Positions 2,346 to 7,285 of a stretch of 7,285 nt of DNA are shown here, in pieces. The notes under the pieces were generated by a model. The model had not been told where the DNA came from, made no database searches, and saw only the letters and a program-made list of their open reading frames with translations. Source of the DNA: an uncultured Oscillibacter sp. (lineage in GTDB: Bacteria; Bacillota; Clostridia; Oscillospirales; Oscillospiraceae); NCBI GenBank assembly GCA_905236835.1, contig CAJOQY010000162.1, positions 1 to 7,285 of the forward strand, written 5' to 3'. The position numbers and the translations under genes are program-made. Each line of letters begins with the position of its first letter. Within the stretch, counting starts at the first letter, position 1.

Positions 2346-3779
2346 TTATTCATATTCCTCAATCGCCTTTACCAGCGTTTCCCGGCCCTGTTCCGCGAGC
2401 GTGATAAACTGGAAAATTTTCTCGCTCCATCCGGCGATAATATTTGTCCGCTCCCCGTAAAACTGCTGTGTGCCGTATCCCTGTAAATCCACGGCGTGAA
2501 CCCAAAGGCGATCCCCTGTCTTTTTCCGGTACTCGTCCGCGAGGGTCTGGACAGGCTTGTCTTTATACCATCCGCCGCCCGCGTTGCATTCGTTGTCGGA
2601 AAAAATAATCAGTCGATCCGCGGTAATATCATCCCAGAGCATTTTCTGAAACGGCAGATACATATCCGTTCCGCCGTTCGCTTTCGCCCGGAGCGTCTCA
2701 CGAATAATATCCAAATGACGGGAGACCGCGATTTTCTCAATCTCCGTATGAAATATATAAAAAATCGCGTTGTCGCAGAGCCTGTTCGCGATCAGTCCAA
2801 GCATCATGCCGATTTCCACACAGCGCACGGAAGATTTTCGGCTGATAAGCCCGCTCATGGAGCCGGACACGTCCACGGCAATGACCGTCGTGCCGGGCAG
2901 TTTCGGCATATTCCCTATAGAAGCGTCCACGGCGTTTTCCAGCGCGTCCAGAGCGCGCGAACCGGCAATATCGGCAATGGATTTATACGCCGCCAGAAAC
3001 CGGAACGGGAGCTGTCCGGATTTGCGCACGGCTTCCGGATTCTCTATGCGCCGCCATACGTTCTCAATATTCGCCGGATTCGCCCGGATAATATTTCTCA
3101 GATTCCGCAACAGCGCCATATAGCCCACTTTTCCGCTGTCAATCAGATTTTCCCATGTTTCGGCGTTGTTGCCCTTGGCGGACAGTTCCGTCTCCCATGT
3201 GACGGGCGTTTTCAGGTTGTTTTCCAATACGCGTTTCCAAAGCGCGGATTGATTTTCGTCTTTCGGACACGGGCGGCACAGGCATAATATATCCCGCATT
3301 TTGACGGTTTTTCCAGCGCCTTTATATTTCGCCAGCGTATATTCGTCAAATCCGCTTAAAACGTCGTTAATCCCTTTTTTCAGCGAATTCGGAACGGGTT
3401 TGCCAAATTCGGCAAGATAAAACGCCATGATTTCCGTTATATCATCGCCGCGCGTAGATACGCGCCGGACAGCATCGCGCGCGAACGGTTTGCCGGTTTC
3501 CTCATGCGCCAGATACGCGGTCAGAACGTGCGGCACGGATCGCATATGAAATTCCCGGCGGGCGAACGCCGCCAGATTAGACACAAATCCCGGATCGGAC
3601 CGGATCACGGCCTTGATATTCTCGCGCATTGCCTCGCTGTTGTCACCGTAATATTTACCTTCATTGAAAAAACTTGTCAAGACCTGTGTGACAAGGCGTG
3701 ATTTCGCGTCCATCTCATACGCGGCGTGTCCGCTTTGATTGACTGTCTCAATCGTCCGCGGCGCGTTGAATTTGGCCAT
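2346..3779 (-). CDS. rsr: Ro60/Rsr orthologue: TROVE and VWA domain RNA-binding ring protein
   Basis: 477 residues. The start is ATG at 3779, with AAGGGGGG ending 6 nt upstream. Residues about 15-290 match the TROVE domain, a ring of HEAT-like helical repeats; MALLRNLRNI (221-230) is a hallmark segment. Residues about 296-470 are a von Willebrand A domain with an intact MIDAS: D303-x-S305-x-S307, T371 in GGTD, and D395 in FSDNE. Ro proteins bind the 3' ends of misfolded or damaged RNAs in the ring cavity and Y RNAs on the outside. In the bacteria studied, a Y RNA tethers Rsr to PNPase for RNA decay or maturation. No PNPase, RtcB or RtcA gene is in the window. Three Y-RNA-like genes lie immediately upstream on the same strand, strong context for the call. 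The gene may be read from its own AT-rich leader or by read-through from the RNA array. Confidence 0.95.
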   Translation of the reverse strand: MAKFNAPRTIETVNQSGHAAYEMDAKSRLVTQVLTSFFNEGKYYGDNSEAMRENIKAVIRSDPGFVSNLAAFARREFHMRSVPHVLTAYLAHEETGKPFARDAVRRVSTRGDDITEIMAFYLAEFGKPVPNSLKKGINDVLSGFDEYTLAKYKGAGKTVKMRDILCLCRPCPKDENQSALWKRVLENNLKTPVTWETELSAKGNNAETWENLIDSGKVGYMALLRNLRNIIRANPANIENVWRRIENPEAVRKSGQLPFRFLAAYKSIADIAGSRALDALENAVDASIGNMPKLPGTTVIAVDVSGSMSGLISRKSSVRCVEIGMMLGLIANRLCDNAIFYIFHTEIEKIAVSRHLDIIRETLRAKANGGTDMYLPFQKMLWDDITADRLIIFSDNECNAGGGWYKDKPVQTLADEYRKKTGDRLWVHAVDLQGYGTQQFYGERTNIIAGWSEKIFQFITLAEQGRETLVKAIEEYE

Positions 3780-3809
3780 TTCCAGCCCCCCTTATCAAAT
3801 CATATAAAA

Positions 3810-3831
3810 ATTATAATAAAATTATAATAAA
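3810..3831. repeat. AT-only tandem repeat in the rsr leader
   Basis: ATTATAATAAA occurs twice in direct tandem (3810-3820 and 3821-3831) inside an A/T-only stretch. On the minus strand each unit carries TATAAT, a perfect -10 hexamer, but neither has a good -35 at 16-18 bp. It could supply a weak promoter for rsr below the RNA array terminator, or simply be a low-complexity spacer like others in this window. Confidence 0.35.
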
Positions 3832-3834
3832 AAT

Positions 3835-3846
3835 AAAAAAACAGGC
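3835..3846 (-). terminator. U tract and closing stem ending the Y RNA array
   Basis: On the minus strand GCCUGU (3841-3846) pairs with ACAGGC at the 5' end of RNA-C (3955-3960) and is followed directly by six U residues and more U-rich sequence. A second helix, AACGCG with CGCGUU, stacks inside it. The result is terminator-like but has a long loop (the whole RNA-C), so some read-through into rsr, 56 bp downstream, is plausible. Confidence 0.5.
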
Positions 3847-3960
3847 GAACGCGGTAAAATCGCAATCGGTTGGCGGCGCGTGGCCGCCGGAGCCTTTCCA
3901 AGCCCGGATAATCGTTTTTAAGACGAAGTAACCGACTGGCGCAACACGCGTTTTGCCTGT
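3835..3960 (-). ncRNA. Y RNA-like RNA-C (Ro-binding stem, no tRNA arms)
   Basis: The third RNA of the array and the nearest to rsr. The ends pair: ACAGGC/GCCUGU, then AACGCG/CGCGUU, then GUUGCG with UGCGAU (three wobble pairs), a 3-nt CCA bulge on the 5' side, and GUCGG with CCGAU. The 5' strand contains the element shared by all three RNAs: UGCG (3940-3943), 7 nt, then GUUACUUCG (3924-3932). The middle differs from the other two. It has GGCGGC/GCCGCC with a 5-nt loop, and alternatively a hairpin closed by a GGAA tetraloop; these compete for the same two G residues. I find no T-loop or D-loop sequence. It looks like a Y RNA whose effector module is not a tRNA mimic. TATACT at 3962-3967, just upstream, could be a weak -10 of its own. 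The ends are set by base pairing, not by mapped transcripts. Confidence 0.65.
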
Positions 3961-3964
3961 AAGT

Positions 3965-4112
3965 ATAAAAAGCGGAGAAAAGCGATAACGGCATACAAAA
4001 GCGCTCTGACCGCTGAGCTACGCCATGTCCGGAGACAACGGCGGCGGGATTTGAACCCGCGACCTCTCGACCCTGACTCGAAGTAACCGTCATACGCACT
4101 GCCGCTTTTTAT
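3965..4112 (-). ncRNA. yrlA: YrlA-type Y RNA-B with a permuted tRNA mimic
   Basis: The outer helix is a perfect 11-bp pairing of AUAAAAAGCGG (4102-4112) with its complement (3965-3975). The shared element follows: UGCG (4095-4098), 7 nt, GUUACUUCG (4079-4087); GACGG pairs with CCGUU on the 3' side. The inner module is a tRNA in permuted order. T arm: GCGGG/CCCGC around a UUCAAAU loop (4044-4060). Acceptor-like helix: CGCC/GGCG and UGUC/GACA capped by UCCG (4021-4043). Then UA, equivalent to positions 8-9. D arm: GCUC/GAGC around AGCGGUCA (4003-4018), which keeps A14, G15, G18G19 and A21. An anticodon-stem equivalent, CGAGAG (4064-4069) with CUUUUG (3996-4001), joins the module to the Ro stem. 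YrlA RNAs are known to mimic tRNA in this manner. The order of arms rules out an ordinary tRNA gene. Confidence 0.85.
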
Positions 4113-4115
4113 CAT

Positions 4116-4242
4116 AAACGCGAACGGATAAAATCAAAAACAGTTTTGCGTCCGCGAACGGACGCCTTCTGGAGTCGAACCAGAGAGTAATCGTGACAAG
4201 ATTACAGCCGAAGTAACTGTTTTTCGCAATGCCGCCGCGCTT
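4116..4242 (-). ncRNA. Y RNA-like RNA-A with a partial tRNA mimic lacking a D arm
   Basis: First RNA after the strong promoter. Outer helix: AAGCGCGGCGG (4232-4242) with CCGUUCGCGUUU (4116-4127), with an internal loop. Inner stem: AAAAACAG (4217-4224) with CUGUUUUU (4136-4143), perfect 8 bp. Shared element: UGCG (4225-4228), 7 nt, GUUACUUCG (4209-4217). Three hairpins follow. GUAAUC/GAUUAC closes a 7-nt UUGUCAC loop (4187-4205), which looks like an anticodon arm with U33 and a GUC triplet. UCUGG/CCAGA closes UUCGACU (4168-4184), a canonical T arm. GCGUCCG/CGGACGC is capped by UUCG (4148-4165), a closed acceptor-like helix. AAAA then leads into the closing stem with no D arm. I read it as a second, shortened tRNA-mimicking Y RNA. 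It ends only 3 nt before RNA-B begins, so the array may be one processed transcript. Confidence 0.75.
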
Positions 4243-4251
4243 ATATATTAA

Positions 4252-4280
4252 ATTATATAGCGTAAAATTCCGTCTGTCAA
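4252..4280 (-). promoter_or_regulatory. Perfect consensus sigma70 promoter of the Y RNA array
   Basis: On the minus strand TTGACA (4275-4280) and TATAAT (4252-4257) are separated by exactly 17 bp, an exact match to the housekeeping consensus. The predicted start, near 4245, falls at the 5' edge of the RNA-A outer helix (4242). The -35 overlaps the HAD stop codon (4277-4279), which is the TGA inside TTGACA. Such a promoter fits an abundant stable RNA rather than the short spacer of an mRNA operon. Confidence 0.85.
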
Positions 4281-4945
4281 TGGTTTGCTGAAAGATTTTG
4301 AAATATCCGCCCGACGCAAGCGGGAATTTCCCGGAAATTTTTGATGATTTCATCCGGATTGACAACCTGTCCGAAGCCGTAAGACGCGAAAATAAACGGG
4401 ATTCCGGCCTGCTTGGACGCCGTTTCATCTCCCTCCGTATCGCCGATATAAACGGCGTGTTTGATTTTATTCCGCTCCATGACAAGCCGGATATTATCCG
4501 CTTTGGATTTGCCGATTCTGTTGGCTTCCTCAAAATCACAAAAATATGATCCCAGTTTATGTCCTTCCAGAAACGCCGGAATATATCCCGCCTGACAGTT
4601 GCTGACGATCATTAAATTATATTTTTCCCGCAATATTTTTAATACTTCTTCCACGCCGTCATATAAAATCCCGCCGGTTTTCCGTAGGGATTCCGTTTCC
4701 GCCTCGCCGCATAATTTGATTAATTCCAATTGCCGTTCTTGGGGCAGTTCCGGCCATAACGCCGCCGCTATCGCGTCCATTTGTTTCCCCATCAGCGGGC
4801 GAATATCTTGGACGGTCAAGCGCCGGGAGATACGCGCGTATTCTTCCTGTACGCGGCTCCAGATTTCGGCCAGACGTTCCGTTGAATCCCACAACGTCCC
4901 GTCCAGATCAAATATCACGGCCTGTTTTTTGATTTGCTGATTCAA
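4277..4945 (-). CDS. HAD-superfamily hydrolase, phosphoglycolate phosphatase-like
   Basis: 222 residues, typical of the PGP/Gph-like HAD subfamily with a helical cap after motif I. Motif I is D13-x-D15-G-T (the nucleophile and acid/base). Motif II is S115 in LMIVSN. The motif III lysine is K146 or K148 in GKSKADN. Motif IV is G-D169-x-x-x-D173, so the Mg2+-dependent phosphatase site is complete. The cap covers about residues 20-90. The substrate cannot be read from sequence; phosphoglycolate or another small phosphomonoester is possible. The start is a TTG at 4945: an in-frame TAA lies two codons upstream and the next candidate, GTG at codon 10, would cut the first strand. GGGATGA upstream is a weak ribosome site that overlaps the end of the small ORF. 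It probably follows tetR in one operon; its stop codon is inside the Y RNA promoter. Confidence 0.88.
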   Translation of the reverse strand: MNQQIKKQAVIFDLDGTLWDSTERLAEIWSRVQEEYARISRRLTVQDIRPLMGKQMDAIAAALWPELPQERQLELIKLCGEAETESLRKTGGILYDGVEEVLKILREKYNLMIVSNCQAGYIPAFLEGHKLGSYFCDFEEANRIGKSKADNIRLVMERNKIKHAVYIGDTEGDETASKQAGIPFIFASYGFGQVVNPDEIIKNFREIPACVGRIFQNLSANH

Positions 4946-6380: not shown

Positions 6381-7285
6381 ATGAGACGTTTCAAATTCAT
6401 AAAACCGCTGGCGGTCTGCTGTATTTTGATTTTCCTGCTGACCGCTAACGCCTCCGCTTCTTTTTCCGATACCGAGGGCCACTGGGCGGAAGCGATTATC
6501 AACAAGTGGAGCCAGAGCTACGGCCTCCTCGGCGGTTACTCCGACGGTACTTTCCATCCGGACGAATACATCACGCGCGGCGCGTTCGCCGGTATCATGA
6601 ACCGTTTCATGCACTATCCCAACCGCTCCGATCCGTCCGTGTTCCCGGATATTGAGGGCAATTACTGGGCCGACGCGATTCTGAGACTGCATAGCGCCGG
6701 GGTTTACCGCGGCAACGGCGGCTACGCCTTCGCCACCGCCACGATCACCCATCAGCAGGCCGTGACCATGATTTCCCGCGCTTTTCAAATCTCAACGGAT
6801 TATCCCGTCCCGCATTATCTCGACGAGGAATTTATAGAACCTTACGCGCGCGGCGCGGTATCCCAAATGACAGATATGGGTTATCTCAAAAATGTCGCGT
6901 GGGATACGTTCCGCCCGGATGATCCCATCACGCGCGCCGAAATCGTTCAGATTTTCAGCAATATCGTGGAGGATCTGGTCCAGTCCGCCGATCCGTGGTG
7001 GTATCGCTGCAACGGCAATCTCATGATCAACAGTCAGGCCGGCGCGACGCTCACCGGCGCGACGATCAACGGCGATCTGTTCATCGCCCCCGGCGTCGTC
7101 GGACCCGTGATTCTGCAAGATACGCAAATCAGCGGCACGGTTTATAATTTCAGCCCTATTACCGTGGAATACCGCTGGACGCCGTCTCCCACGCCCACGC
7201 CGGAACCCACTTCCACGCCGGAGCCGACATCAGATCCGACTATCCCGACGCCGACGCCTACATCCGCTTTTATCGGCCCCGTCCT
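6381..7285 (+). CDS. Secreted SLH-domain cell-surface protein, N-terminal part
   Basis: 301 codons are visible; the gene continues past the right edge. The start is ATG at 6381 after AGAGAGAGGG, in front of a classical signal peptide (residues 1-26: basic RRFK, hydrophobic core, ANASA cleavage motif). Three SLH domains follow: about 28-76 (FSDTEGHWAEAI, GYSDGTFHPDEYITRG), 88-136 (FPDIEGNYWADAI, but a weak second half) and 147-196 (YARGAVSQMTDMGYL, FRPDDPITRAE). The third keeps ITRAE, the first has ITRGA, and the second has ITHQQ, which departs from the ITRAE consensus. SLH triplets bind pyruvylated cell-wall polysaccharide or equivalent, fixing the protein to the envelope. Residues 213-257 are rich in Gly, Thr and Ile in a short-repeat pattern suggestive of a beta-solenoid. 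Residues 267-295 are a Pro/Thr/Glu linker typical of clostridial surface proteins. The C-terminal, functional part is unseen. Its leading promoter is strong, fitting an abundant product. Confidence 0.9.
   Translation, partial: MRRFKFIKPLAVCCILIFLLTANASASFSDTEGHWAEAIINKWSQSYGLLGGYSDGTFHPDEYITRGAFAGIMNRFMHYPNRSDPSVFPDIEGNYWADAILRLHSAGVYRGNGGYAFATATITHQQAVTMISRAFQISTDYPVPHYLDEEFIEPYARGAVSQMTDMGYLKNVAWDTFRPDDPITRAEIVQIFSNIVEDLVQSADPWWYRCNGNLMINSQAGATLTGATINGDLFIAPGVVGPVILQDTQISGTVYNFSPITVEYRWTPSPTPTPEPTSTPEPTSDPTIPTPTPTSAFIGPV

Follow-up and report, generated by a model that had tools for sequence, protein, structure and literature searches.

Three predicted Y-type RNAs beside a bacterial rsr gene, one of which reads as a circularly permuted tRNA with an anticodon arm

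Introduction

Circularly permuted tRNA genes occur in some algae and archaea, where they are processed into working tRNAs. Among bacterial Y RNAs, YrlA is modified by TruB and DusA. According to the available text of two papers, the long stem of bacterial Y RNAs binds Rsr and the middle module binds an effector such as PNPase (PMC8394870, PMC7790460). For YrlA (RF02553; found in Salmonella and other bacteria), the available passages of one review mention D, T and acceptor arms and no others, and describe the RNA with these three arms as tethering PNPase (PMC8394870). The YrlA structure, 6CU1, can be superposed on tRNA once a circular permutation is allowed for, as stated in the accessible part of PMC11472068, and a passage of PMC7790460 suggests that its tRNA-like domain is a possible competitive inhibitor of anticodon nuclease. 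For phages, the accessible text of PMC12282133 cites a proposal of Y RNAs in mycobacteriophages and reports very high transcription of three regions that precede a putative Rsr in Listeria phage CKA15. As far as the listings and passages show, the literature searches brought no description of a Y RNA with an anticodon arm.

The stretch of DNA analyzed here (the window) is a single contig of 7,285 bases, from a source genome that is 71%-complete. In common with YrlA, it has predicted Y RNA beside rsr and a long stem formed by both RNA ends. The circular permutation is already known from YrlA; the anticodon arm is what differs here.

Results

On the minus strand, the genes follow in the order thioredoxin, TetR regulator, HAD phosphatase, RNA interval and rsr. 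The promoter and the RNA units are predictions, and the unit ends are approximate.

4252..4280, minus strand: predicted sigma-70-type promoter TTGACA-17-TATAAT, matching 12/12 consensus positions and overlapping the HAD stop codon
4114..4245, minus strand: RNA-A, with a long terminal stem and the common 9-mer at 4209-4217 (folds, shuffles)
3966..4111, minus strand: RNA-B, read as a long terminal stem around a complete circularly permuted tRNA (85.5 bits with the covariance model R1 described below, 29.2 bits with YrlA, and fold)
3835..3960, minus strand: RNA-C, a minimal Y-type RNA with the 9-mer at 3924-3932; its outer stem, the last of the array, is followed by a run of U (terminator-like)
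2346-3779, minus strand: rsr, for a TROVE + Ro60 vWA (Ro60-like) protein of 477 aa (Pfam PF05731, E 1e-31; PF25045, E 3.8e-11)

As the promoter ends at 4252, the transcript start is expected near 4245. A single consensus promoter had been claimed in the first-pass annotation, and the one other site called in 3700-4400 matched the consensus at 9/12 positions. The same annotation placed three minus-strand RNA units, with paired ends and a common element, between the HAD gene and rsr, and this was borne out by folds, shuffles and the 9-mer. The ends of RNA-A, RNA-B and RNA-C are paired alike in a long stem in the predicted folds; the fold energy of each unit was better than 200/200 dinucleotide shuffles (z = -5.1 for A, -3.4 for B and -3.8 for C), and the whole 419 nt folded into three separate long-stem units (z = -5.8, 0/100 shuffles as good). 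The 9-mer GUUACUUCG lies just inside the long stem of every unit (at 4079-4087 in RNA-B; minus strand in all three), with 0.05 copies expected by base composition, counting both strands. Its core, UUACUUCG, has no further occurrence on either strand of the window.

The start of rsr lies ~55 nt past RNA-C. Among PDB matches of its product, the TROVE structures 9l5y and 9kop were closest (E ~5e-37) and Deinococcus Rsr, 2nvo, was a weak match (E 2.4e-5). In protein searches, Rsr was not found in 59 relatives (36 of the same genus, several of the genomes incomplete) and was present in 8/391 genomes sampled from the class, including the window's own. This patchy distribution is compatible with transfer between species, without being proof of it; rsr may have come by horizontal transfer, or binning may have misplaced the contig. 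The 620 nt before rsr are identical between one relative of the same class (L014) and Clostridium weizhouense (L005), which makes Clostridia the probable class of the host. No claim is made on the insertion site, since the closest relative of the HAD gene is only 49% identical. PNPase is encoded in the window's genome (G000:C256; score 30.2 bits, cut-off 24.6). RtcB is a repair partner elsewhere, in the rsr-Y RNA-rtcBA repair operon; no match to it was found in the 71%-complete genome, nor rtcB in the window, and the gene may sit in the missing part.

Elsewhere in the window, 6381-7285 encodes a protein with S-layer homology and a tail of proline/threonine-rich repeats, truncated by the contig end. 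A strong G+C hairpin with AT-rich flanks, terminator-like, lies at 2257-2290, 3' of a TspO gene; it was the source of Rfam miRNA and other matches at 2170-2314, which were dropped as weak matches on an AT-rich hairpin.

Motif copies were collected from genome and viral loci around rsr, and duplicate loci were removed. Loose criteria over the full stretch of each locus gave 126 copies, some of them chance occurrences; 60 had a T arm, 39 had T and D arms, and 33 also an acceptor hairpin. With at least 600 nt of upstream sequence available and the same kind of loose criteria, element copies stood before rsr in 32/34 related loci, and the remaining two lacked a copy in the 1,500 nt preceding rsr. 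The Y RNA reading of the array is well supported because of this recurrence, and is right as far as sequence tells. Two copies were counted in 7 loci; 14 loci had three, 6 had four, 2 had five, 1 had six and 2 had seven. These counts are approximate, since some chance occurrences pass the motif and stem criteria and variants escape them (L010 and L016 each hold one such variant). A tandem of three, considered unusual in the first-pass annotation, is therefore the commonest size (14/34). In 28 loci with a copy no more than 400 nt from rsr, the closest copy was minimal in 19, and it is likewise minimal in the window; among the remaining copies 37/78 were minimal.

In an Rfam search, named in the first-pass annotation as a check, RNA-B scored 29.2 bits with YrlA, far below the gathering score of 69, and scores this low also arose in 7/14 control genomes; RNA-A and RNA-C had no match up to E 1. 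The YrlA threshold was reached in 0/16 related loci, and copies from cultured phages scored 33-56 bits with that model. Rfam includes a Deinococcus Y RNA family, which was absent from the Rfam matches up to E 1. The window resembles the Deinococcus Y RNA/Rsr/PNPase system (RYPER) in having predicted Y RNA beside the Rsr gene and PNPase in the genome, and differs from it in that its RNAs have tRNA-like modules.

The first-pass annotation was supported, by sequence and by related loci, in placing a Y RNA array with different middle modules beside rsr, but it overlooked that the modules of RNA-A and RNA-B are tRNA arms. This tRNA identity of modules in Rsr-array RNAs, anticodon included, is the real finding. 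The parts of RNA-B were read as follows.

4066..4082, minus strand: anticodon arm UUCGA-GUCAGGG-UCGAG, with U33, anticodon CAG and G37; the last part of the common element serves as its 5' strand
4061-4065, minus strand: variable loop AGGUC, directly before the T arm
4044..4060, minus strand: T arm GCGGG-UUCAAAU-CCCGC (sequence reading)
4021..4043, minus strand: acceptor stem of six pairs, looped into a hairpin and lacking CCA
4003..4020, minus strand: U8-A9 and D arm GCUC-AGCGGUCA-GAGC, then G at position 26

Within the long stem the order from 5' to 3' is thus anticodon arm, variable loop, T arm, acceptor 3' strand, loop, acceptor 5' strand, U8 A9 and D arm. The distances between the arms match a tRNA whose variable loop is short, with the long stem inserted between positions 26 and 27. 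A T loop with UUC and a D loop are present. RNA-B therefore reads as a complete circularly permuted tRNA, including the anticodon arm. The permuted T arm, acceptor hairpin and D arm of YrlA are all found in RNA-B only; RNA-A is without the D arm and RNA-C without T and D arms. In the YrlA model of Rfam the T arm comes 4 nt after the main stem, a distance that leaves the model without an anticodon arm, whereas RNA-B has a 17-nt anticodon arm and the variable loop at that place. Algal and archaeal permuted tRNA genes have the same 3' half before the 5' half, joined at the acceptor end; unlike these, RNA-B has a closed acceptor and a long Rsr-type stem at positions 26-27.

The remaining arms of RNA-A were read as follows.

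4187-4205, minus strand: displaced anticodon-like arm GUAAUC-UUGUCAC-GAUUAC, with loop UUGUCAC and anticodon GUC
4168-4184, minus strand: T arm UCUGG-UUCGACU-CCAGA (sequence reading)
4148-4165, minus strand: acceptor-like hairpin with a UUCG loop (sequence reading)

A D arm was not seen in RNA-A, which scored 25.2 bits with R1. RNA-C has the hairpin UCGU-CUUAAAA-ACGA plus two more. Such an anticodon-like hairpin was unsupported in relatives without a T arm, where five pairs around a 7-nt loop occurred in 0/66 copies and at least four pairs in 7/66, like other lengths.

The anticodon arm was evaluated in several sets of copies. The motif was taken as the fixed 5' strand, and loop lengths of 3-14 nt were scanned in the 60 T-arm copies; 5/5 pairs formed in 16/60 at 7 nt and in 0-2 at each other length, and copies lacking a T arm gave 0/66 at 7 nt. 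A DNA pattern consisting of the motif and the T loop only was then matched to viral contigs and hit at least 120 stretches, of which 80 were read (rsr on 50/80), giving 87 unique copies. A 7-nt loop with 5/5 pairs was present in 34/87, and lengths of 3-6 and 8-12 nt gave 0-2. The 35 complete arms of this pattern set, taken in either of two registers, had U33 in 35/35 and a purine at 37 in 35/35, and pair 31-39 was CG in 15, AU in 10, GC in 5 and UA in 5. Pooling all loci, 120 non-redundant copies were chosen on T, acceptor and D arms; 53 had five pairs in the anticodon arm (U33 in 53/53, purine 37 in 51/53) and 27 had four (U33 in 22). Many copies are without the arm, even tRNA-like ones, as 40/120 in this set pair fewer than four of five.

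A subset of 48 of the 120 was aligned. Its selection was based on the position of the T arm (+27), on short acceptor loops and on the acceptor and D arms, and not on the anticodon arm; a T arm at +27 leaves space for an anticodon arm, so the selection is not fully neutral. The anticodon helix was paired in 89.6% of cells. Pair 31-39 was formed in 46/48 rows (AU 20, CG 18, UA 5, GC 3; unpaired 2), with ~20/48 expected to pair by chance from the column counts of the alignment. The covariation score of the whole structure was 0.546, compared with 0.152 in shuffles (0/500 as high). The anticodon helix provides the sole independent covariation result, as the other three helices had been selected for pairing, and changes on both sides were seen at pair 31-39 only, because UUCG is invariant. 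ARAGORN called a tRNA in 31/33 un-permuted copies (61/66 sequences); this was rejected as proof of an anticodon arm, since an anticodon-shuffled control still gave 25/33 (37/66). On the combined tests, read from sequence, the anticodon arm is conserved in a large part of the tRNA-like copies.

Loop positions were tabulated in the 48-row alignment. U33 was present in 43 rows, positions 34 and 35 were variable, and position 36 was U in 29, G in 16, A in 2 and C in 1. U36 went with A37 in 29/29 and G36 with G37 in 13/16. Coupling of 36 and 37 is a feature of real tRNAs, in which U36-A37 is the setting for t6A and G36-G37 the setting for m1G. A36 was scarcer in Y copies than in ordinary tRNAs of the same loci (5/75 vs. 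172/704; chi-square P = 2.7e-4, kinship ignored), a shortage that is taken as a lead. Anticodons differed within one array in 8/8 loci, where chance alone often gives the same.

The covariance model R1 was built from the 48 rows, RNA-B itself being one of them. At E 0.001 it matched in all 398 genomes searched (same phylum), because neighboring tRNA genes imitate the arm order. The eight best matches (at least 66.6 bits, window included) were all beside rsr, and none of the 22 next matches fetched (at most 65.7 bits) was; the readable ones among the 22 were ordinary tRNA genes. R1 was thus rejected as a stand-alone finder, and scores below ~66 were counted only for copies beside a Ro-like gene.

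As in the window, copies lie upstream of Ro-like genes in several phages. Five copies precede the TROVE gene of Xanthomonas phage 10KY502B, one of which (103.2 bits; L176:2485-2552) is annotated as tRNA-Thr. In Gordonia phage VanLee, an 84.3-bit copy upstream of the Ro-like gene is annotated as tRNA-Arg(tct) (L223:1763-1834), the annotated anticodon being that of the copy's loop, CUUCUAA. Copies in Streptomyces phage EhyElimayoE (64.2 bits) and Mycobacterium phage Cane17 (63.5 bits; element variant UUACCUC) are below the safe score and stand shortly before the Ro-like gene. In crAss001, weak copies of up to 29.7 bits lie downstream of the Ro-like gene. Bacillus phage G had no R1 match before its TROVE gene; five minimal UUACUUC copies (one CUACUUC), none tRNA-like, were found there by eye (L227:1000-1765). 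Vibrio phage pv27 gave no R1 match.

The Listeria phages were considered as an expressed example of the same family and rejected. The likely counterpart of the CKA15 putative Rsr, gp165 of phage P100 (L178:26571-28091), which is similar to it in size, is a DUF2828/DUF7788 protein with a weak vWA match, and the UUACUUCG element was not found in the 36 kb of P100 searched. The highly transcribed Listeria phage RNAs may be another class.

Discussion

The array, its common element, the link to rsr and the permuted arm order are established by sequence and comparison. Taken together, the interval probably holds three predicted Y-type RNAs, likely transcribed from one promoter and likely bound by Rsr, among which RNA-B would be a complete permuted tRNA with a closed acceptor, likely held by Rsr as a tRNA mimic. 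As in known bacterial Y RNAs, Rsr would bind the long stem with the common element, and the middle module would serve as the effector part. With all tRNA arms present, anticodon included, but rearranged and with the amino-acid end looped, RNA-B is likely a decoy or docking handle for tRNA-recognizing enzymes. The mimic would show the tRNA elbow and the anticodon loop to proteins that do not need a free 3' end; modification enzymes, anticodon nucleases and PNPase are candidate partners, which would be either tethered to Rsr or drawn away from real tRNAs. Copies within one array would offer different anticodons, or none. The anticodon loop would suit the anticodon-nuclease-inhibitor idea, as worded in the available passage of PMC7790460, better than YrlA itself does. 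An Rsr-held mimic engaging proteins that read elbow and anticodon is favored on the strength of the known Y RNA roles together with this idea.

The RNAs could instead be ordinary YrlA-type Y RNAs, in which the tRNA-like part tethers PNPase to Rsr (RYPER), the extra hairpin is a structural spacer and the anticodon is without a role. This is possible, although we consider it the less probable account. PNPase is encoded in the genome, its tethering is described for YrlA with T, acceptor and D arms in the available text of the review (PMC8394870), and the extra arm is missing from many copies; a spacer leaves unexplained the 7-nt loop, the U33 in 35/35, the purine at 37 and the coupling of 36 and 37. 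As the spacer account overlaps with the Rsr-held mimic on tethering, the two likelihoods are not exclusive.

It appears unlikely that the conserved hairpin serves to bind Rsr and owes its likeness to an anticodon arm to chance. Its 5' strand does belong to the element common to minimal copies, and the invariant UUCG of that strand could be kept for Rsr alone. The concern about a fixed motif as 5' strand is answered by displaced arms, which vary in both strands. In copies with the T arm 29-45 nt off, a separate stem was sought between the motif and the T arm with both strands free, and five pairs with a 7-nt loop were found in 18/46 copies, RNA-A among them, compared with 1.5 expected after shuffling; loops of 8, 9 and 10 nt were also above chance (6, 8 and 5 copies vs. 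1.0-1.4). Displaced arms thus retain the 7-nt loop with other stems, and U33 in 15/18, against an element kept for Rsr binding. The arm, moreover, accompanies the T arm and was not seen in copies without one.

That the copies are permuted tRNA genes processed into working tRNAs is very unlikely. Their anticodon loops are realistic, two copies are annotated as tRNA-Thr and tRNA-Arg, and N-CCA stands directly after the acceptor 3' strand in 10/93 copies (in L008, L016, L019, L031, L087, L090, L100, L108 and L140), compared with 2 copies when the site is shifted upstream by one base and 0 when it is shifted downstream by one to three. RNA-B and 83/93 copies overall, however, have no CCA at that place, many acceptor loops are short, positions 26-27 are interrupted by the long stem, and the copies sit beside rsr. 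The N-CCA remnants suggest that whole tRNAs were once circularized or tandem-duplicated. Such descent would also fit decayed or captured tRNA gene pieces without function, a reading made hardly credible by compensatory changes in all four arms (three of them selected for pairing), low fold energies and recurrence beside rsr in distant genomes and phages.

Returning to the Rsr-held mimic, a broader role is put forward tentatively. Rsr loci, many of them on phages, might maintain small libraries of non-chargeable, anticodon-bearing tRNA mimics that would absorb anticodon nucleases or capture tRNA enzymes in stress or infection, each Rsr-held copy with a different anticodon loop fit for tRNA modification.

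The annotation of phage genomes lists some Y-type permuted tRNA mimics as tRNA genes, which calls for caution. An anticodon arm with U33, coupled positions 36-37 and a covarying closing pair is found beside rsr in phages and in bacteria. The anticodon loop directs the question of what the mimicry is for to partners that read the anticodon, and this purpose becomes directly testable.
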